Shown here piece by piece: positions 42,327 to 55,350 of a stretch of 64,000 bases of DNA; the first letter of the stretch is position 1, and every line of letters begins with the position of its first letter. The position numbers were made by a program, and so were the translations under genes. The notes beneath the pieces were generated by a model, which ran no database searches, had not been told where the DNA came from, and was given only the letters and a program-made list of their open reading frames with translations. The DNA is from Candidatus Schekmanbacteria bacterium (lineage in GTDB: Bacteria; Schekmanbacteria; GWA2-38-11; J061): NCBI GenBank assembly GCA_016219965.1, contig JACRJM010000007.1:1-64000 (forward strand). The letters run 5' to 3'.

Positions 42327-42785
42327 ATGAAAACTGAAAAAACAGATGAACTGGGAGAACACATTCTCAAGGTTAAGGATTTTTTCATAGAGTTTACCAA
42401 GAAGGTCATTTCTCTGGATGGTGCAAAATTGAGCTTTGAACTCAATCTTTCAGAACTCAAAGCACTTACTGCATTCACAGATGATAAAAAGAAGTGCACA
42501 ATGAGCGAGCTTGCAAGAAACGCCGGTGTAACAATGCCCAGTATGACAGAAGTAATAGACAGTCTAGTTAAAGAGAACATTGTAGAAAGGCAAAGGGATG
42601 AAAATGACCGCAGAGTAGTTCTCGTTGAATTAACTGAAAAGGGTAAAAGGATGAGAAAAGAATTTATGGACAGGAGGAGGCTGGAGCTAATAAATATTTT
42701 TAACCGTCTTGATAGAAACGAGCGGAAGGAGTTTGTTGAGTCTCTTGAAAAAGTCAGATCCATACTCCAAAAATTAAATATTTAA
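42327..42785 (+). CDS. MarR-family transcriptional regulator
   Basis: 152 aa winged-helix regulator. N- and C-terminal helices flank a DNA-binding domain (about 50-115), in which MSELARNAGVTMPSMTEVIDSLVKENIV is the recognition helix-turn-helix, and RQRDENDRRVVLVELTEKGK is the wing with the conserved DxR. MarR proteins are dimeric repressors released by small molecules or oxidised cysteines. Here the only cysteine is in DDKKKCTMSEL. As first gene of a chelatase/metal-transport operon it may sense a metal or tetrapyrrole. It is 43 nt upstream of the large chelatase subunit. Confidence 0.92.
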   Translation: MKTEKTDELGEHILKVKDFFIEFTKKVISLDGAKLSFELNLSELKALTAFTDDKKKCTMSELARNAGVTMPSMTEVIDSLVKENIVERQRDENDRRVVLVELTEKGKRMRKEFMDRRRLELINIFNRLDRNERKEFVESLEKVRSILQKLNI

Positions 42786-42828: not shown

Positions 42829-45800
42829 ATGCACTTTACCGCAATAATCGGTGATTATACCTATAGCAAATCTCTGGCCGAAGCATCAGATCTTCTCAAA
42901 AAGAAATTTGGAGGGAAGGTAACTTTAGACTATTTCTTCTGTCTTCGTCACCAGAAATTTGAGCGCCGGCAGCTCAGTGAAATTGAAGAAAACGTTAAAA
43001 AGGCAGACACCGTAATCGTCAACATGATTTTTGATGATGAAATCATAGAAATTTTGGAAAGGCATAAAAGTGACAATAAAAACTATTTAATACTGGCTTC
43101 CATGCCGCGGGGATTAGTACTTACAAAGATCGGTAAATTCAGCCTTTCAAGTATCTCCATGCCTGATAAATCATCAATGCTCGGTAAGGCATTGGGTGTA
43201 TTGCGGGGACTCATGAGTTCAAGCAAAAGCACTATGGAGGTAAGAAAGCTTCTTGTAATGGCTGATACGATATTGAAAGTATTAAGGTTCGGGAAATGGA
43301 AGGATGCAGCAAATTATATAAGAGTATGGAAATATTTTTATGCCGGAGGAATGAACAATATTAAAAACCTTTTTCTCTTCCTCCTTTCAGAATACTACGG
43401 ATTCAAAACAGAATATGATTTGCCTGAAGAAATTCCACAGGGTGCCATATATCATCCTAAGGCCGGCAAGATCTATGATGACGTAGAAGAGTACCTAAAA
43501 TGGTACAAAAATTCAGGCCTTCTAAGGACCAACGGCTTCAAGAAAACTCCATATGTGGGGATTTTGTTCTACATGCAGCGTTATCAGACGCAGGACATAA
43601 ACGATCTCCTTGCAGTTATAGAATCACTCGAAAAGCACGGCGTTGGAGCCATGCCGATTCTTACATCAGGTTCTGAAAACATGAAGAATATGGAGCGTCA
43701 TTTCACTGTAAAGGGAAAATCACGGGTTGAAGCCATTATAAGTTTCCTCTTCTTCAGGATCGAGGGCGGACCCTTAGGCGGAGACTATGAAGCGTTTATA
43801 AACCTTGCAAAGAAGATTAATGTACCGCTGATTAAATATATGAATATGGGTTATACCACTATCGAAGAATGGAAACAAAGGAGCGAAGGAATGGCTCCGC
43901 TTGAAACTACCATTACAACAATACTACCTGAGCTCGATGGGCTTATCGAAGGGGTTTTGGTTGCAGGTCATGTAGATTCTACGGAAGACAAAGGAAAAAT
44001 TATCAGGACAATGGAACCTATCCCGGACAGGGTTGAACGTGCTGTTGAGAGGACAACACGCTGGATAAAGCTGAGGCAGACGGAGAATAAAGACAAGAAG
44101 GTCGCTTTTGTACTTTTTAACTATCCTCCAGGAAAAGACAACATTGGAAACGCGGGAAACCTCGACACATTTGAAAGCATAATCCGGTTATTCGACGCCA
44201 TGAGGAAAGAAGGGTACGATGTCTCAGGCTATCCTAAAACGCGTCAGGAATTCGTAAGACTCATGGTAAAGAAAAATCTCGTTAATCTTAGCGACTGGAC
44301 AGGTATGCAGAAGATAAAGGAAAATGCTTTTAAAGTGCCTTTATCAACATATCGTAAATGGTTTGAAGAGATTCCAAAGGAAAATCAGGAAGAAGTATCC
44401 AAAATGTGGGGAGATATCCCGGGGAAAATCCTGGCTGATGACGAATCTCTCCTTGTCCCCGGCATTACATTTGGTAATATTTTTCTAGGGTTTCAGCCGC
44501 CAAGGGGATATTTTGAGGATCCTTCAAAAACCTATCATGACAGCGGGATAGTTCCCCATCACCAGTACCTTGCTTACTACATGTGGCTGCAAAATGAATT
44601 CAAGGCAGACCTCCTCGTACACTTTGGAACCCACGGCACACTTGAATTTCTTCCCGGAAAACAGGTTGCCCTCTCACAAAACTGCTATCCGAGCATCCTG
44701 ATAGGAAACATGCCACACGTTTATTACTATACCTGCTCAAATCCTTCGGAATCGTCAATAGCAAGAAGGAGAAGCCAGGCTACAATGGTCGATTACATGA
44801 CCCCTCCGATGATAGTATCAGACCTATATGGCAGGCTTGCAGAGCTTGAAAGCGAGATAAACAACTATTTCCAGCAAAAAGACCAGAGCCCTGCCCAGTT
44901 AGGAATGATAAAAGAACGCATACTGAACATGGCCAAGGATGAGAACCTTATTGATATTATGGCAGAGGATGTTGATGTAAGCACACTCTATGATTCCCTT
45001 ATTGAAATGAAGGGAAGTCTTATGACAAAAGGAATTCACGTACTTGGAAATTCCTTAAAGGGAAAAGAGCTTATTGATTATGTCATGGGCATAGTCAGAT
45101 TCGACAAAGGCGATGTTGTATCTTTATTCAGAATTGTTGCTGCCACTTACGGTATTGACTGGGAAGAAGCGAGGGAAACTCCCTCAAAGATTCATAGCGA
45201 CGGAAGACCGCTGGGAATTATCCTGAAAGAGACAGAGGAAAAGGGATACCGCATTCTCACCGATTACCTTGAATCATCTTATCCCAATGTTAAGAAGATT
45301 GCAGGTAAAGTACTCAATGGAAATCTCAGCTCAGACGACTTGAAGAATCTTGAGAAGACATTGCAGTTTGCAAAGATTGTTGCTGGCAATCTATCCAAGA
45401 ATACTGAGATAGAAAGTCTCATAGCATCATTTTCAGGAAAATATATAGAGCCTGGCGTTGGCGGCGACCCGGTTAGAAGCCCGAGCGTCATACCAACAGG
45501 CAGGAACATTTACCAGTTCAATCCTGACCTCATACCAACCCTTGCTGCTGTCCAGAGAGGTGTCACTGTGGCTGAACAGGTAATCACCGGTTATAAAGAG
45601 GAAAACGAAGGCACCACCCCTGAAACAGTCGGAGTAATCCTTTGGGGATTTGAAACAATGAAAACTCAGGGAGAAACTGTGGCGGAAATCTTTCAGTATC
45701 TTGGGGTCGAACCAAGATGGTCAGGAACCGGAGATTTTGTCGGGGTAAAGCCTATACCACTTGAAAAACTCGGAAGACCCAGGCTTGATGTAGCAGTCGA

Positions 45801-46728
45801 AATCTGCGGCATATTCCGTGACACATTCCCTCTGCTCTTGAAGCTCATTGACAGGGCATTCAACATTGTGGCAGACCTCGATGAACCGCATGACAAGAAT
45901 TACGTACGCAAACATTCAGAGGAAATTTGCAGAACATTAATTGAAAAAGAAGTCCCCAAGGATCAGGCATTGGCACTTTCAAGGGCAAGGATTTTCGGCC
46001 CTTCATCAACGAACTACGGAACTGACGTAACGCAGCTCATAGAAACATCCGGCTGGGAGAATTCTGACGAAATAGCCAACCTGCATATTGCAAAAATGTC
46101 GCACATATATGGCGACACATTTCACGCTGTTGCAAGCGCAGATACCTTTAAGGCTGTGCTCGACAAAGTTGATGTCGTAGCCCAGGTAAGAAGCAGCGAT
46201 GAATACGGCATGGCAGATCTTGATCACTATTACGAATTTCTGGGCGGCATGGCAAAGTCCGTTGAAAGTGTAAAAAAGAAAAGTGGCCCTGGCAGGAAAA
46301 AAACTAAGCCTACAATACTGGTAGCAGACACCACTAAAGATAACATCAAGACCAAAAACATAAAGACAACCCTCGAATACGAGGCAAAGACAAAGCTATT
46401 TAACCCGGAATGGATCAAGGGACAGGTTGACAGCGGCTATCGCGGAGTAAAGAACATAAGCCAGAGAGTTGAACATCTAATTGGCTGGTCGGCAACAGCA
46501 GAATCAGTTGATAACTGGGTATGGAGCCAGGTGGCAGAGAAATATCTCTTCGATGAAGCTGTACGAAAGAGCATGATGAAGGAGAACATCTGGGCAGTGG
46601 AACACCAGCTCAATCGTCTCATGGAGGCCTTTAACCGGGGAATCTGGGATGCATCAGAAGAAGAAATAGAAAAGCTAAAGAAAATCTATCTCGAGATTGA
46701 GTCTGAAATAGAAGAGATGGAAGAATAA
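42829..46728 (+). CDS. BchH/ChlH-type magnesium chelatase large subunit
   Basis: 1299 aa, the porphyrin-binding subunit of an ATP-dependent metal chelatase. The first ~170 residues resemble the ChlH/BchH N-terminal domain (DUF3479), which CobN lacks. The CobN/Mg-chelatase domain follows, with LLVHFGTHGTLEFLPGKQ (about 597-614), SGWENSDEIANLHIAKMSHIYG region, GDPVRSPSVIPTGRN, and HYYEFLGGMAKSVE near the end. Known family products carry Mg-protoporphyrin (chlorophyll) or Co-corrin (B12). No chlorophyll or B12 genes are in the window, so metal and macrocycle are unknown. A GGAGG site precedes the ATG. Confidence 0.9.
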   Translation: MHFTAIIGDYTYSKSLAEASDLLKKKFGGKVTLDYFFCLRHQKFERRQLSEIEENVKKADTVIVNMIFDDEIIEILERHKSDNKNYLILASMPRGLVLTKIGKFSLSSISMPDKSSMLGKALGVLRGLMSSSKSTMEVRKLLVMADTILKVLRFGKWKDAANYIRVWKYFYAGGMNNIKNLFLFLLSEYYGFKTEYDLPEEIPQGAIYHPKAGKIYDDVEEYLKWYKNSGLLRTNGFKKTPYVGILFYMQRYQTQDINDLLAVIESLEKHGVGAMPILTSGSENMKNMERHFTVKGKSRVEAIISFLFFRIEGGPLGGDYEAFINLAKKINVPLIKYMNMGYTTIEEWKQRSEGMAPLETTITTILPELDGLIEGVLVAGHVDSTEDKGKIIRTMEPIPDRVERAVERTTRWIKLRQTENKDKKVAFVLFNYPPGKDNIGNAGNLDTFESIIRLFDAMRKEGYDVSGYPKTRQEFVRLMVKKNLVNLSDWTGMQKIKENAFKVPLSTYRKWFEEIPKENQEEVSKMWGDIPGKILADDESLLVPGITFGNIFLGFQPPRGYFEDPSKTYHDSGIVPHHQYLAYYMWLQNEFKADLLVHFGTHGTLEFLPGKQVALSQNCYPSILIGNMPHVYYYTCSNPSESSIARRRSQATMVDYMTPPMIVSDLYGRLAELESEINNYFQQKDQSPAQLGMIKERILNMAKDENLIDIMAEDVDVSTLYDSLIEMKGSLMTKGIHVLGNSLKGKELIDYVMGIVRFDKGDVVSLFRIVAATYGIDWEEARETPSKIHSDGRPLGIILKETEEKGYRILTDYLESSYPNVKKIAGKVLNGNLSSDDLKNLEKTLQFAKIVAGNLSKNTEIESLIASFSGKYIEPGVGGDPVRSPSVIPTGRNIYQFNPDLIPTLAAVQRGVTVAEQVITGYKEENEGTTPETVGVILWGFETMKTQGETVAEIFQYLGVEPRWSGTGDFVGVKPIPLEKLGRPRLDVAVEICGIFRDTFPLLLKLIDRAFNIVADLDEPHDKNYVRKHSEEICRTLIEKEVPKDQALALSRARIFGPSSTNYGTDVTQLIETSGWENSDEIANLHIAKMSHIYGDTFHAVASADTFKAVLDKVDVVAQVRSSDEYGMADLDHYYEFLGGMAKSVESVKKKSGPGRKKTKPTILVADTTKDNIKTKNIKTTLEYEAKTKLFNPEWIKGQVDSGYRGVKNISQRVEHLIGWSATAESVDNWVWSQVAEKYLFDEAVRKSMMKENIWAVEHQLNRLMEAFNRGIWDASEEEIEKLKKIYLEIESEIEEMEE

Positions 46729-46753: not shown

Positions 46754-48181
46754 ATGCAAGGATCAAAAAACCAGCAGGGAGAGTCAGAGAACAAAAGTCA
46801 CGGGCATAGCCACTCTCACGGTCATCCTCATGGAAAGATTTCAATAGATCTCACTGAAGGGAATATATCAAAAAATCTCTGGTCACTGGCATCACCTATG
46901 ATTATAAGCCAGATAGTACAGACCGTATTCTATATCGCTGACCTCATATTCGTTGGAATGGTCGGTTCAACCGCCATAGCATCGGTATCAATTGCAACTA
47001 TATTCATGATGACACTTTCAACCGCGGCTCATGGACTCTCTATCGGAACAACCGCCATAATCGCCAGATTAGTAGGGCAAAGAAAGGATGATGAAGCTGC
47101 ATTTATAGCCGGTCAGTCAATAATGTTATGTTTCCTGCTTGGGGCAGCAATTGGTATACCTGCATATTTCAAAGGAGAAGCCCTTTTCGGTTTTCTTGGC
47201 GCAAATGAAGAACTTGTAAAGGTAGGAGTAGGCTATTTCAAGATATCACTGCTTGGCATATTTGCCCTTTTTCTGCAGTTTATAACAAGCTCTATATTCA
47301 GGGCAACCGGGGAGGCAAGGATATCCATGCTTCTTACCCTCATGGCAACAGCACTTCACTTTATCTTTGATCCGCTTCTCATATTCGGCATAGGTCCTTT
47401 CCCCAAACTTGGCGTGAACGGTGCTGCGTACGCATCAATAATAGCACTGGTCATATCTTCAGCCACCGGTACCATAATGCTTCTTAGCGGATCATACAGG
47501 ATTAAGGTTGTTGCCAAAGACTTTACTATAAATCTCTCCGCACTATGGAGGATATTTAAAATAGCCATACCTGCAGCTTCAAGAAGACTGATACGCGATG
47601 CAGCCAGAATGGTAATGATGAAAATAGTGGCCATCTATGGAACAAGCGCAATCGCCGCCTATGGCATAGGGATGAGACTTGACATGATAGCAATGCTCCC
47701 CGGGATGGGTCTCTCTGCTGCAACGTCAACACTGGTAGGACAAAACCTTGGCGCAGGGAAACCGGAAAACTCCGAAAAAAGCACATGGATATCAGTAAAA
47801 CATCTTAGCCTCATTATGTCAGTGTTCGCGGTGATATTTTTTGTATTTGCTCCTTATATTATTTCAATGTTTGACAGGGCTTCCAATGTAATCTCTGCAG
47901 GTACTGAATATATGCATTATATTTCGATATCATACATTTTCGTTGCAATAATAATGGTTATTGGAGGAGCATTTAATGGTGCAGGCGACGCCATGTCCCC
48001 TCTTGTGATTTCAGGATCAGCAGCATGGATATTGCAACTTCCTCTGGCAGGTTTACTTGCAACAAAAATGAGTTTCGGCCCTGCGGGAATATGGGGAGCG
48101 ATCCTGCTCAGTGCAATAATAGAGTCAGCCGCCTTTCTCATCTGGTTTAAGCAGGGCAACTGGAAATTAAAAAAAGTTTAA
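46754..48181 (+). CDS. MATE-family exporter with His-rich N-terminus
   Basis: 475 aa with twelve membrane helices, two homologous MatE halves (GNISKNLWSLASPMI at the start of the first). Unusually, a cytosolic extension contains six alternating histidines at 16-26 (HGHSHSHGHPH), a metal-binding tail not usual in MATE drug exporters. Inserted between the large and small chelatase subunits with gaps of 25 and 35 nt, it may export the metal chelate, its macrocycle or a toxic metal complex. That is inference. The family normally uses Na+ or H+ gradients. Confidence 0.9.
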   Translation: MQGSKNQQGESENKSHGHSHSHGHPHGKISIDLTEGNISKNLWSLASPMIISQIVQTVFYIADLIFVGMVGSTAIASVSIATIFMMTLSTAAHGLSIGTTAIIARLVGQRKDDEAAFIAGQSIMLCFLLGAAIGIPAYFKGEALFGFLGANEELVKVGVGYFKISLLGIFALFLQFITSSIFRATGEARISMLLTLMATALHFIFDPLLIFGIGPFPKLGVNGAAYASIIALVISSATGTIMLLSGSYRIKVVAKDFTINLSALWRIFKIAIPAASRRLIRDAARMVMMKIVAIYGTSAIAAYGIGMRLDMIAMLPGMGLSAATSTLVGQNLGAGKPENSEKSTWISVKHLSLIMSVFAVIFFVFAPYIISMFDRASNVISAGTEYMHYISISYIFVAIIMVIGGAFNGAGDAMSPLVISGSAAWILQLPLAGLLATKMSFGPAGIWGAILLSAIIESAAFLIWFKQGNWKLKKV

Positions 48182-48216: not shown

Positions 48217-49302
48217 ATGAGTGAAAAAAAGGAAAAAGTAAAAAGGACTCTCTATCCATTTATTTCAATAGTGGGACAGGAGGAAATGAAGCTTGCCCTT
48301 GAGCTTAATGCCGTTAATCCTTCTATAGGCGGAGTGCTTATCAGAGGAGAAAAAGGGACTGGAAAATCAACAGCAGTAAGAGCACTTGCCGAGATTCTTC
48401 CAGACGTAGCAGTTATAAAGGGATGCCCCTTCAACTGTTCTCCCGACAGCGGAGCATCGCTATGCCCCTATTGCAGGGAAAACTTAGATAAAGCGGATGG
48501 GGACATGACAAAGCTTCCGGTTGAACACAGGAAGATGAAGGTTGTTGACCTTCCCCTGGGAGTAACGGAAGACAGATTGCTTGGAAGCCTTGATATAGAA
48601 AAGGCAATAAAGGAAGGAAAGAGAGAACTCGAGCCCGGGATACTCGCTGAGGTTAACGGCGGTATTCTTTACGTTGACGAGATAAACCTCCTTGATGACC
48701 ATGTTGTTGACGTTCTCCTCGATGCTGCAACCTCAGGTGTAAATGTCGTGGAAAGGGAGGGGATATCATTCTCCCATCCTTCAAAATTCATACTCGTAGG
48801 AACAATGAACCCGGAAGAAGGGGAACTTCGCCCGCAGCTTCTTGACAGGATTGCAATACACGTCAACGTTGAAGGGCTTCAAAACGTAGATGACAGGGTG
48901 AACATAACCCTGCTCAGGAATGAATTTGAAATGGACCCGGTCAAGTTCAACGATAAATACAGGAAGGAGAGCGAAAATCTCTGTAAAAAAATAATTAACG
49001 CCGGCAAGCTCATCGACAGCGTGGAAATATCAGAAAAAGCGCTTGGACTTATATGCCGCATATGCCAGGAGCTTTCCGTTGAAGGACACAGGCCTGACTC
49101 AATGGTCGCAAAAGCCGCAACAACTCTTGCTGCTTTCAGGGGAAGAAAAAAAGTAACCATTGCAGACATTAAAACAGCTGTTAAATACATCCTCACATTC
49201 CGTATCAAACGGGTACCATTCAAATCTGAAGAACATCACGTAACATTCCTTGACGAAGTTGTGGTGAGACTGTCTAAGGAAAAGGGGCTGGAGGTAAACT
49301 AA
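48217..49302 (+). CDS. BchI-type chelatase AAA+ subunit, copy 1
   Basis: 361 aa AAA+ ATPase. Walker A GEKGTGKS (44-51), Walker B LYVDEIN with D154-E155, sensor I in [13 protein letters not shown], and a C-terminal lid. Between Walker A and the helical insert lies a four-cysteine cluster, Cx3C-x8-CxxC (C70, C74, C83, C86), likely a structural zinc site. BchI hexamers drive metal insertion together with the D and H subunits. ATPase motifs look intact. The stop is separated by only 1 nt from the next gene. Confidence 0.9.
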
Positions 49303-49303
49303 T

Positions 49304-51355
49304 ATGGCTATGAACAAGCAAATTAAAGCCTCCCGAGTTCTCTATCCTTTTTCTGCCATGGTCGGGCAGGAAAACATGAAGCTTGCCCTCATCCTGAATG
49401 CAATCAACCCCCAGATAGGCGGGGTACTGATAAGAGGTGAGAAAGGGACCGGGAAATCAACCCTGGTCAGAGCCCTTGCAGAAATACTGCCATCCATTGA
49501 TGTAGTCGAAGGATGCGCCTTTAACTGTAATCCTCACATCTTCACTGAGCTATGCCCCAAATGCCGTACAGATGTTCTCGAGGGGAAAGGCCTCAGGATA
49601 AAAAAAACGCAGGTCAAAGTTGTTGACCTTCCACTGGGCTCTACTGAGGACAGGCTCGTAGGCTCCCTCGACATAGAGCAGGCGGTAAAATTCGGCAAAA
49701 AAGTTCTTGAACCCGGTATACTTGCAGATGCAAACCAGGGAATACTCTACGTTGACGAGATAAACCTGCTCGACGATCATGTGATAGATGTTCTGCTTGA
49801 TGTAGCAGCTTCCGGAGTTAACACAGTTGAAAGGGAGGGGATATCATTTTCCCATCCATCAAGATTTATTCTCGTGGGCACCATGAATCCAGAGGAAGGG
49901 GAGTTGAGGCACCAGCTCTTAGACCGGATCGCTCTGCATGTTGAGGTTAAAGCCCTTGACTCAATAGATGACCGTGTTTCAGTGACACAGCTCCGCAACC
50001 AGTTCGAGAGTACCCCAGATGCTTTCAGGAAAAAATATTCAGTCAAAAGCAGCGATCTTAAAAAGAAAATTGTAGATTCACAGGATTTACTGAAAGAGAT
50101 AGATATCCCGGACAGGACAATGATGCTTGTATGTAAAATGTGCAGAGAGCTTGACGTTGAAGGCCACAGACCTGATGTGATGATTCTTAAGACGGCTTCT
50201 ACCATAGCAGCTTACGAAGGACGAAAGGAAATGACGCAGGAGGACGTGAAGAAAGCAGGCGAGCTTATACTCCCCTGCCGTATCCGTTCCCTTCCTTATG
50301 GTGAAGAATCTTCAACTGATGAGTTGATAGACCAGCTTGTTGACGAGCTCTCACAAGAGATGGAAGAATTCATGCCTCCCTCTGATAGTGACGCAGAGCT
50401 TGAATCAACTGACGAACAGGAAGAAAAAATTGAAGGGCAGATACACCGGATCGGGACCCCTGTTGAAATACCCAAGCAGATGACAAAGAAAAAGGCTGAC
50501 CGCAAAATGCGTTCAGGCTCAGGAAAAAGAATAAAGTCTATTTCGTCCGGAAGAAAGGGAAGATACATTAAACACAGCATCCCCCAGGATGACATCATTG
50601 ACATAGCCTTTGATGCGACAGTCCGCGCTGCTGCACCTCACCAGAGAAGCAGAAGGGAAAAGGAACCATCCAAACATGCCCTGTTAATAAAAAAAGATGA
50701 CATCAGGAGAAAGATACGCCAGAGCAAGGTTTCATCCCTTATCGTTCTTCTTGTTGATGCAAGCGGGACAATGGGAGCACTTGACAGGATGGAATGCGCA
50801 AAGGGAGCAGTATTCTCGCTCCTCATGGATGCTTACCAGAGCAGGGACAAGGTAGCAATGGTTGCATTCAGAGGAAATGACGCGCAGGTAATACTTCCGC
50901 CGACTAACGGGGTCGAGCTTGCAAGGAAACTCCTCACTGACCTCCCCACAGGAGGGAAAACCCCTCTCGCGCTGGGGATGATGAAGGCATTAAACCTTAT
51001 AAAAACTGAGAAGAAAAAGGATGACACAATTGTACCGCTCCTCGTTCTTCTCACAGACGGAAGAGCGAACATATCCATAGTAGCGGATGCAGACCCGATG
51101 GAGGAGATAAAAAAGTTATCAGAGATGATCGCCTCTGAAGACATATACACAGTAATGATTGACACTGAAGTGACAAAGAAAATGAGGTTCCTGAATTTCT
51201 CCTACGGATTTGCAAAGGATATCGCTGAAGCATTGGGAGCAAAATACTACCGAATAGACCAGCTCGACTACCAGAGTCTTGGCTCACTTATTACGATGGA
51301 AAAGAAGATGGCATTCGACCAGGTGGAAAGACAACCAACAGTCTCTTTAAGATAA
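49304..51355 (+). CDS. BchI-BchD fusion: AAA+ and VWA chelatase subunit
   Basis: 683 aa. An N-terminal AAA+ domain (to ~340) with Walker A GEKGTGKS (45-52), cysteine cluster C71, C75, C84, C87 and Walker B D151-E152 is nearly a copy of the gene before. A charged linker (about 355-465) runs from acidic to basic, as in BchD. A VWA domain (about 470-683) has the MIDAS motif DASGTMG at about 485-491. BchD-type subunits dock I-type rings to the H subunit. Classical BchD has a degenerate ATPase, while here Walker A and B are intact. Confidence 0.9.
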
Positions 51356-51368
51356 AGGATGATGTGAA

Positions 51369-52520
51369 ATGGCAAAAAAACAAAAACAGACCAAAACAGA
51401 AAGCAGTGCCTTTACAACCGGAAGGACTAACTTTCCCTTTGCAGCAATAGTTGGACAGGAAAAGATGAAGATGGCATTAATCCTCAATGCAATCAATCCG
51501 CAGATAGGAGGAGTGCTCATAAGGGGAGAAAGAGGGACCGCAAAGACTACCGCAGTAAGAGGACTGGCAGAGATACTCCCCGGAATAGATGTAGTTGACG
51601 GGTGCAAGTTCCGCTGTAATCCCTTTGAACCGGGAAAGATGTGTTCCTCCTGCCGTGACGAATACGACAAAAAGAAAAAACTTCCCCATGTAAAACAGAA
51701 GATGCACATAGCGGAGCTTCCTGTGGGAGCAACCGAGGACAGGGTCGTAGGAACGCTCAACCTTGAAACAGCAATAAAGGAAGGAATAAAAGCCCTTGAA
51801 ACAGGAATCCTCGCAGATGCAAACCGTGGGATACTTTACATAGACAACATCAATCTCCTTGATGACCATATTATGGATGTACTTCTTGATTCTGCTGCCA
51901 TGGGGGTAAACGTGATTGAAAGAGAAGGTGTGTCTGTCTCTCATCCCGCACACTTCATTCTTGTAGGCACAATGAATCCGGAAGAAGGAGAGTTACGGCC
52001 GCAGCTTCACGACAGACTCGCCTTCCATGTGGAAGTAAAAGGGATGTCAGACCTTAACTCAAGGGTGCAGATAGCAAAAAGGATAAGGGAGTTTGAAAAA
52101 GATCCAATCCTTTTCAAGTCACGCTTTGAAGCACAGAGCAGGGAAATTACTGAAAAGATAATCAGGGCAAGGGACATGATTAACAATGTTAAAATATCAG
52201 AATATTTCCTACGAATAATCGCCCGCATGTGCATTGAGCTTGATGTCGACGGCCATCGTCCTGATATTATTATCGCAAGGGGTGCAAAGACCAAAGCAGC
52301 ATATGATGGAAGACATGAAGTGGTGGAAGAAGATGTAAGGCTTGCAAGCGAATTGACTTTAGGCTTCAGGATGAGGAGAACGCCATTCGAGGATGCAGCC
52401 CTTGCTACAGGGAAGTTCCAGCAGGTTCTTGACTATGCAAAACAGATGGAAGATAACGCAGCCAAAGAAAAGAAAAAAGGAAAAAGTAAACAAAAGGCTG
52501 ACACAGCACCTGCATCCTAA
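51369..52520 (+). CDS. BchI-type chelatase AAA+ subunit, copy 3, with altered Walker B
   Basis: 383 aa, third I-type AAA+ protein in a row. Walker A GERGTAKT (53-60) is intact, and the cysteine cluster C79, C83, C92, C95 is conserved. Walker B, however, reads ILYIDNIN: the catalytic glutamate is Asn160 (codon AAC), whereas both sister genes have DEIN. The protein should bind ATP but hydrolyse it poorly, so it may regulate the ring or act as a non-hydrolysing partner. A lysine-rich tail (about 350-383) is unique to this copy. It is 13 nt from the VWA fusion gene. Confidence 0.9.
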
Positions 52521-52554: not shown

Positions 52555-53409
52555 ATGCACGACATTAACCGTGATAAATTCTTCGAAAAGATTTCAGCGG
52601 AAAAGAAAAAGGGACGCAGCAAACCACAGGGTGGCGAATCCCATACATCATCTCACGGGCACAGCCATGATGATCATGATGAAGAAAAAAATCATACACA
52701 CGGCAAACATGAACATAGGCACAACGAGCACGAAACAAAGCATTCTCACCAGCATGATGAAGATAATCACCATGAACATGACAAAGACAATGAACATGAT
52801 CATCACGAACACGATGAACACAAGCACGACGAGCATGACCATGACAAAGCTCACGGGCACCGCCACGACCATGATGAACATGATGAAGACAATGACGAAC
52901 ATTACGGGCATGAACACGACCACGACGAAGATGACCTTGAAGGCCATTCTCATGACGACCACACACATGGCCATGATCACGGCTCATTCGTAGACCGCGC
53001 CTATGTGCATGTCCATGGCCATTCCCACAGGATAAAGCATGATCACACCCATGCGCATAGCCCTGAAGGAGAAAGTGTAATACACAAGATTTTCAACAAT
53101 CCGTTGAGAGACTGGTTTGCACTGATTTTCATGTGTGCACTTTTAGCGGCAAGCCAGCAGTTTGCCATGAGCGACACTCTAAAAGATGGACTATTGATAA
53201 TAGTAACCGTAACAGGGCTTTTCCCTCTTGTAAAAAACGCATTGCTTCAGGGTCTGATGAAGAAAAAGCTGACCCCTGAATTGCCGGCAGCCCTGTTGCT
53301 GATTTTGCTTCTTGCAAATGAAAGATTTTTCATCGCAGCCTTAGCGGCTCTTCTCTTATTTCTGGGAAGTTTCCTTAACCTTGATTTCTCATGGGGAGAA
53401 AAGGACTAA
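52555..53409 (+). CDS. His-rich protein with partial P1B-ATPase membrane domain
   Basis: 284 aa. Residues 30-175 are composed almost entirely of His, Asp, Glu, Lys and Gly, with about 48 histidines, a high-capacity site for Zn, Ni, Co or similar ions. The C-terminal part (about 190-284) has four hydrophobic segments. It aligns by eye with the first membrane helices of the P1B ATPase encoded 3 nt downstream: GLFPLVKNALLQGLM against GLPIVKNSIRAIF. Both proteins also begin MHDI-x-R. The ATPase catalytic domains are missing. I infer a metal-buffering or delivery partner that arose by duplication and truncation. Confidence 0.8.
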   Translation: MHDINRDKFFEKISAEKKKGRSKPQGGESHTSSHGHSHDDHDEEKNHTHGKHEHRHNEHETKHSHQHDEDNHHEHDKDNEHDHHEHDEHKHDEHDHDKAHGHRHDHDEHDEDNDEHYGHEHDHDEDDLEGHSHDDHTHGHDHGSFVDRAYVHVHGHSHRIKHDHTHAHSPEGESVIHKIFNNPLRDWFALIFMCALLAASQQFAMSDTLKDGLLIIVTVTGLFPLVKNALLQGLMKKKLTPELPAALLLILLLANERFFIAALAALLLFLGSFLNLDFSWGEKD

Positions 53410-53412
53410 AAC

Positions 53413-55350
53413 ATGCATGATATAAGCAGAGAATCTATACTACCGGGAAGTGTCGCCGCATCAGTTGGTGAGCACGATCATCATCTGTCAACATTCAATA
53501 TAGAAAAGGTTGAGACTTTTTTTTCTCCTGTTGTCTCCATAATTCTTATTCTTTCTTCTTTCTTTTCAGGCGGGGATAAAACAAGGCTCGGCATTTACCT
53601 TTCCCTTTCAGCATGTGTTTTAAGCGGTTTGCCAATAGTAAAAAATTCGATTCGGGCAATATTTGTGGACGTAAGACTTAACGCCGAGTTCTTAGTCACC
53701 TGCGCGCTCACAGCCTCAATATGGGTCGGAGAATACATGGCAGGCGCCATCGTAGTCCTTATGATGAATGTTGGAGAGCTCCTTGAAGACCTGACCATTG
53801 CAAAGACCGGCGAGGCAATAAGGAAGTTAATTGCCATCACTCCCCAATCTGCGACAGTCATAAGATACGGAATGGAAGAAAGGGTTGACATAGAAGATGT
53901 TATGAAGAACGACCGTGTCCTTGTAAAGCCCGGGGAAAAGATACCTGTTGATGGTTACATCGAGACAGGAAAAGCAGAAATCGAAGAGGCGACTATTACT
54001 GGCGAGCCTCTTCCAGTAACAAAAGAGGAAGGGGATAGCGTTTTTGGCGGAACAATAAACAGGAACGGCGTACTTATAATAAGAGCAACAAGGGTCGGCA
54101 GGGAAACAACTCTTTCAAAGATAGTGGAAATGGTAAAAAAGGCTCAGGCTGAAAAGCCTCCCATAGAAAGAATAGCAGACCGTTTTTCAAGCTGGTTCAC
54201 CCCGGCAATTCTGATTTTCAGCGGCGCTGTTTATTTTTTTACAGGCGAGATAATCCGCTCTGTATCCGTACTCGTTGTTGCATGCCCATGTGCTTTAGTA
54301 ATCGCCACACCAACAGCGGTAGTTGCCGGTATAGGCAACGCTGCCCGGAAAGGGATACTGATTAAAGGTGGGGCTGTCTTAGAAACAATGGGACGTATCA
54401 CGTCATTCGTATTTGATAAGACAGGCACTCTAACATTCGGAAAACCTATGGTAGAGGAGATTCTCCCTCTCGAAGGTTTTAGCGACAAAGCTGTAATAGA
54501 ACTCGCCGCAATGGCTGAGAAAAGGTCAATCCATTCCCTTGCGCATGCCATTCTTGAAAAAGCTCAGGAAATGGGGCTTACAATACCGGCACCGGACAAT
54601 AGTGAAACCATTGTGGGCAGAGGAATCAAGGCAGAGATAGGCGGGGACAAGATAATCTTAGGGAATAAGAAAATATTCACGGATGAGGGAATCCATATCC
54701 CTGAGGATTGCCATATTTTCATAGACGGTCATTCCCGGAACGGGAACACTTCAATAATAGTAGGGCTTAATGGAAAGATTGCAGGCATTGTGGCAGTGTC
54801 AGACAGGATAAGGGAAGAAGTTGGAGAAACTATCAGTGATCTCAGAAAACTTGGGGCAAAAAACATAGTCATGCTTACAGGTGACAGAAAGGAATCTGCA
54901 ACAAAGGCTACAGAGGGAATAGACTTTGACAGGATAGAAGCTGAACTTCTCCCCGAAGACAAGGTCATCCATATAACTAGGATGAAGAATTCTGGTGAAA
55001 AAGTTGCAATGGTGGGAGACGGGATAAATGATGCCCCTGCCCTTGCCCTTGCTGATGTGGGCATTGCAATGGGAGGAGGCGGAACGGACATAGCCATAGA
55101 GTCGGCTGATATCGCCCTAATCTCCGATGATATTTCAAAAATCCCTGAAGGGATTGCCCTTGGAAAGAAAACGATTCAGATCATAAAACAAAGCTTGTTG
55201 ATGTCTGTGATAATAAATGCGGGAGCGCTGTTCTTTGCCTCCACAGGATATCTAGGTCCTATAGGCGGAGCCATAGTCCACAACATCGGTTCCATATTAG
55301 TCGTCGGCAACTCCTCAAGGCTCATCACATACGGGTACAGGAAGAGGTAA
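53413..55350 (+). CDS. P1B-type heavy-metal ATPase
   Basis: 645 aa P-type ATPase. The CPC metal site is at 291-293 (VACPCALV), the phosphorylation site at D335 (DKTGT), the actuator TGEP is in ATITGEPLPV, and the hinge is MVGDGINDAPALA. No N-terminal CxxC HMA domain is present; a short EHDHH stretch (about 19-23) may bind metal. The last helices carry HNIGSILVVGNS, with a histidine where the Zn/Cd subtype has D-x-G and the Co subtype HEGS. The ion is therefore uncertain. It closes the operon; AGGACT precedes the ATG. Confidence 0.93.
   Translation: MHDISRESILPGSVAASVGEHDHHLSTFNIEKVETFFSPVVSIILILSSFFSGGDKTRLGIYLSLSACVLSGLPIVKNSIRAIFVDVRLNAEFLVTCALTASIWVGEYMAGAIVVLMMNVGELLEDLTIAKTGEAIRKLIAITPQSATVIRYGMEERVDIEDVMKNDRVLVKPGEKIPVDGYIETGKAEIEEATITGEPLPVTKEEGDSVFGGTINRNGVLIIRATRVGRETTLSKIVEMVKKAQAEKPPIERIADRFSSWFTPAILIFSGAVYFFTGEIIRSVSVLVVACPCALVIATPTAVVAGIGNAARKGILIKGGAVLETMGRITSFVFDKTGTLTFGKPMVEEILPLEGFSDKAVIELAAMAEKRSIHSLAHAILEKAQEMGLTIPAPDNSETIVGRGIKAEIGGDKIILGNKKIFTDEGIHIPEDCHIFIDGHSRNGNTSIIVGLNGKIAGIVAVSDRIREEVGETISDLRKLGAKNIVMLTGDRKESATKATEGIDFDRIEAELLPEDKVIHITRMKNSGEKVAMVGDGINDAPALALADVGIAMGGGGTDIAIESADIALISDDISKIPEGIALGKKTIQIIKQSLLMSVIINAGALFFASTGYLGPIGGAIVHNIGSILVVGNSSRLITYGYRKR

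Follow-up and report, generated by a model that had tools for sequence, protein, structure and literature searches.

A conserved asparagine at the Walker B glutamate position of a third I-type chelatase subunit suggests an ATP-holding partner in a BchH-type motor ring

A change of the Walker B glutamate usually stops ATP hydrolysis while ATP binding and assembly stay intact; the precedents are mostly Glu-to-Gln replacements, and Asn is one methylene shorter. The E108Q form of PspF has <1% of the ATPase activity and binds ATP 30-fold more tightly (PMC4132715), ChlD E152Q assembles like the wild type but has its kcat/K0.5 for MgATP reduced to 16% (PMC3789969), and linking Msp1 E193Q subunits to wild-type ones has no dominant-negative effect on ATP hydrolysis (PMC12793716). 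In hexamers of ChlI, the arginine finger and sensor 2 are contributed across the interface by the neighbouring subunit (PMC10653834), and I-subunit mutants are described as semi-dominant (PMC11439855). An I subunit serving as a placeholder that completes the ring and lowers its ATPase has been proposed for the algal paralogue CHLI2 of Chlamydomonas (PMC4915523). Activity outside chlorophyll and B12 synthesis is known for the H homologue HmuS, a heme de-chelatase (PMC12583661), and in B. theta the conversion of heme by this system was linked to a membrane fraction and NADH. Bacteria with chlI/chlD genes and neither a chlorophyll nor a B12 pathway also exist, the described cases being without the large subunit (PMC9227772).

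The locus described here lies in the window, the whole 64,000-nucleotide stretch of Candidatus Schekmanbacteria DNA that was analysed, and consists of eight forward-strand genes separated by gaps of 1–43 bases. A MarR-family regulator (42327–42785) heads the cluster and is followed by H, a BchH-type chelatase catalytic subunit of 1299 aa (42829–46728), a MATE-family transporter (46754–48181), the stand-alone I-type AAA+ subunit I1 (48217–49302), the D-type subunit ID2, in which an AAA+ domain is fused to a VWA domain (49304–51355), the third chelatase AAA+ gene I3, again a stand-alone I-type protein (51369–52520, 383 aa), a His/Asp/Glu-rich protein with a membrane segment (52555–53409), and a P1B-type heavy-metal ATPase (53413–55350). 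The nearest genomes among 60 sampled relatives, G001 (same family, another genus) and G002 (same order, another family), keep the identical order, MarR gene included, minus the MATE gene, which is missing at this position in both.

H scored 1043.9 bits against the BchH/ChlH equivalog model TIGR02025 (cut-off 829). In searches of solved structures it was nearest to ChlH (E 1.9e-202), with HmuS (PDB 9d26) also matched; it thus shares homology with HmuS but differs from it in being closest to ChlH and in having I and D motor genes in its operon. Genome G000 contains another BchH-like gene (G000:C3:420669-424007; L059 8610–12512, reverse strand), with 49% identity to the operon H and no I or D genes nearby; its product may be served by the I1/ID2/I3 motor as well. 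Only one H each occurs in G001 and G002. ID2 scored 505.9 bits against the BchD/ChlD profile (cut-off 499.55). Its MIDAS motif is DASGT throughout the clade (three genomes), and DASGS is found in most aligned D-type homologues.

I3 matched only ChlI/BchI structures (8osf, E 2e-101), with which it shares full-length homology, the Walker A lysine, sensor 1, arginine finger, sensor 2 and AAA lid, as well as being encoded together with H and D-type subunits. Its score against the BchI/ChlI model TIGR02030 (409.0 bits) falls under the curated cut-off of 466.95, as do those of I1 (403.9 bits) and the AAA part of ID2, so that I3 is not singled out by this measure. No VWA domain was matched in the 383 residues of I3, the combination of VWA and MIDAS being what marks BchD/ChlD. 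An AlphaFold model computed from a 4-sequence alignment had a mean pLDDT of 42.8 and a pTM of 0.26, values too low for it to be used. The C-terminus carries a Lys-rich tail (window ~52460–52517) which is present in all four I3 copies, varies in length and is missing from I1.

I3 is unlike BchI/ChlI in its Walker B motif. Positions 51840–51848 read ATA GAC AAC, encoding Ile158-Asp159-Asn160 within the motif YIDNIN, and the equivalent site of both neighbours, I1 and ID2, reads LYVDEIN. Re-reading of the codons agreed exactly with the initial annotation, which had described VDEIN in the first two copies, the VWA-fused one included, and IDNIN with Asn160 (AAC) in the third. Asn160 (codon 51846–51848) aligns to the Walker B glutamate of the ChlI/BchI structures 8osf, 6l8d and 1g8p. 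In an alignment of 43 sequences (3 I3, 21 other I-type and 19 D/ID-type), glutamate occupied this position in 40/40 of the sequences other than I3.

The substitution is conserved. The I3 orthologues of G001 and G002, 81% and 73% identical to that of the window, both read YIDNINLL with the same AAC codon, so that Asn160 is present in 3/3 complete I3 orthologues from two families, all of them within one order; G003 carries I3 too, on a contig that begins downstream of the Walker B motif. Orthologues with DE at this position, which the initial annotation had named as the sign of a private mutation or read error, were not found, both relatives carrying DN. A DNA pattern specific for DN matched 3/386 genomes, exactly the three I3 genomes, and an open pattern allowing any residue after the Asp gave 42 matches in 28 of the 386 genomes (38 Glu, 3 Asn and 1 Asp), the three Asn matches being exactly the three I3 copies; both patterns need the surrounding motif to be intact, and more diverged proteins escape them. 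Two Janthinobacterium loci from a scan of named genomes had DE in both cases. The single Asp match belongs to a D-type gene of genome G263 (L084 1195–3027, forward strand), which has DD in Walker B and MLDN, with Asn, at the arginine-finger site, and which adjoins a stand-alone I copy with intact DE. By these motifs it is a D subunit with the classical type of degeneration.

The remainder of the ATP site of I3 is largely preserved. Lys59 of the Walker A motif (GERGTAKT, residues 53–60, 51525–51548), Asp159, the sensor-1 residue Asn203 (51975–51977), the arginine finger Arg216 (52014–52016, aligned with R210 of Nostoc ChlI) and the sensor-2 arginine Arg297 (52257–52259, aligned with Nostoc R291) are invariant in all 43 sequences, I3 included. 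I3 departs from the family at few near-constant positions (Thr60, Ala115, Asn160, Met169, His214, Phe219 and Ile260). Two of these accompany Asn160 at normally constant ATP-site positions: Thr60, the last Walker A residue, which replaces the usual Ser, and His214, two residues before the arginine finger (52008–52010), where 39/40 of the other sequences have Leu and all four I3 genomes have His. The change in I3 thus looks aimed at the ATP site and does not resemble the decay of a whole gene.

With Asn160 conserved and the other catalytic residues kept, ATP binding with poor hydrolysis is the natural prediction for I3. We consider it fairly probable that I3 is an ATP-holding, hydrolysis-deficient I-type subunit which mixes with I1 and ID2 in the ring that drives a metal chelatase of the BchH type. 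In such a ring I3 would bind ATP and hydrolyse it very slowly or not at all, would offer its arginine finger to the neighbouring subunit, and would take its place next to I1 and the ID2 AAA domain as an ATP-holding allosteric or brake subunit and not as an engine. Because arginine finger and sensor 2 are both retained, I3 should still be able to activate its neighbour while its own site keeps ATP. Its effect would be regulatory and tied to the metal supply. For I3 itself, then, we infer ATP binding, loss of hydrolysis, entry into the shared ring and regulation linked to metal supply.

The role so proposed resembles that suggested for ChlD/BchD and the fused putative cobaltochelatase subunit (TIGR02031, TIGR02442), namely an allosteric partner that binds nucleotide, hydrolyses it weakly or not at all and works with an active I subunit (PMC3789969). 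However, I3 cannot replace D because it lacks the VWA/MIDAS domain, which ID2 of the same operon has. Like CHLI2, I3 is an I-type paralogue that would make the ring complete while reducing its ATPase (PMC4915523), but CHLI2 is eukaryotic and its P-loop domain is incomplete, whereas in I3 the site is complete apart from a conserved substitution of a catalytic residue. The initial annotation had gone further and read the locus as a reversal of the usual division of labour between I and D. That part does not hold as worded: an intact Walker B glutamate in a VWA-containing copy is normal, being found in 19/19 aligned D/ID-type sequences, with the D-type protein of G263, found by pattern, as the exception. 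Synechocystis ChlD has E152, yet no ATPase activity was observed for it (PMC3789969). What stands is that a silenced stand-alone I copy is unusual; as far as the sequences indicate, the unusual element is only this additional, putatively silent I copy beside the intact I1.

The same cluster of substitutions can be read differently. Asn160, Thr60 and His214 change together, only in I3 and at almost constant sites, and the arginine finger of ChlI acts on the nucleotide of the neighbour (PMC10653834), so a site compensated in trans is conceivable: in rings where I3 adjoins I3, His214 might reach across the interface, partly replace the glutamate and restore some catalysis, I3 still hydrolysing ATP. 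I3 might also form a ring of its own, apart from I1 and ID2. An AAA+ protein in which a His serves as general base in this way did not turn up in the analysis, and we regard the compensated site as improbable.

Slightly less probable still is that I3 works outside the chelatase ring, serving the His-rich protein and the P1B metal ATPase as an adaptor under ATP control. The genes for these two proteins directly follow I3 in all four genomes, and the Lys-rich tail, a feature of I3 and not of I1, would face a strongly acidic partner. Yet I3 also lies directly behind ID2 in three genomes, it retains the arginine finger and sensor 2 that are needed to act on a neighbouring subunit, and the tail differs in length among the copies. 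The His-rich protein has 50 His in 284 aa and is kept in all four genomes; the membrane part at its C-terminus is similar to the membrane helices with which the P1B ATPase begins (hhalign probability 92, E 6.5e-7, from shallow profiles), and the protein may derive from half of a P1B ATPase, the catalytic domains being absent. As for a private mutation, a read or assembly error or a decaying gene, nothing speaks in favour and the AAC codon in three independent genomes of two families, the open reading frames and the strong conservation speak against, leaving it hardly any probability.

Selection and phylogeny were compared among the operon genes. Identities between the window and G001/G002 were 81%/73% for I3, 78%/68% for I1, 80%/72% for ID2 and 77%/66% for H; conservation of I3 thus equals that of its operon partners. 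The pairwise dN/dS of I3 between the window and G002 was ~0.06, a value which points to purifying selection and is indicative only, as dS is near or beyond saturation. In a maximum-likelihood tree, I1, ID2 and I3 were each monophyletic and jointly formed one lineage-specific clade (supports 98–100), within which I1 and ID2 were nearer each other than I3 (labels read after rerooting). Duplication within this lineage is therefore the most likely origin of the three motor genes, with the Glu-to-Asn change most likely placed on the I3 branch.

Family searches were made for markers of the known chelatase pathways in four genomes of the phylum. Neither BchL nor BchM was found above cut-offs in these genomes, and the corrin-ring amidase CobB/CbiA gave no match in any of the four, with 10/14 control genomes matching. 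Chlorophyll and B12 synthesis are therefore unlikely, and a role of the operon in photosynthesis or B12 synthesis was rejected. ALAD is clearly present in three of the four genomes; ferrochelatase matches were weak. Two adjacent NifH/BchL-like genes, under the BchL cut-off, make up a nitrogenase-like cluster together with a gene of ~441 aa, which was seen at two sites (L060 7988–11023, reverse strand, G000:C10; L061 7160–10210, forward strand, G001:C20).

For this BchH-type chelatase the operon suggests a function that lies outside chlorophyll and B12 synthesis. Tentatively, and with rather low confidence, we envisage a three-motor chelatase made of an active I1, an active ID2 and an ATP-locked I3, which would move a metal into or out of a tetrapyrrole, would be coupled to metal handling through the His-rich membrane protein and the P1B ATPase, and in which I3 would be a switch linking the ATP level or the metal supply to the ring. 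The idea of a low-ATPase placeholder has a precedent in CHLI2 (PMC4915523), but the literature searched contained no description of the sequence solution seen in I3 for a bacterial operon with three motors. I3 bears on how I and D share one ring in magnesium chelatase and why a non-hydrolysing AAA+ partner is needed (PMC10653834, PMC3789969). It appears to be a natural counterpart of the laboratory-made Walker B mutants, and its operon has kept an intact I copy next to it, so that what a silent subunit does becomes testable in a natural system.
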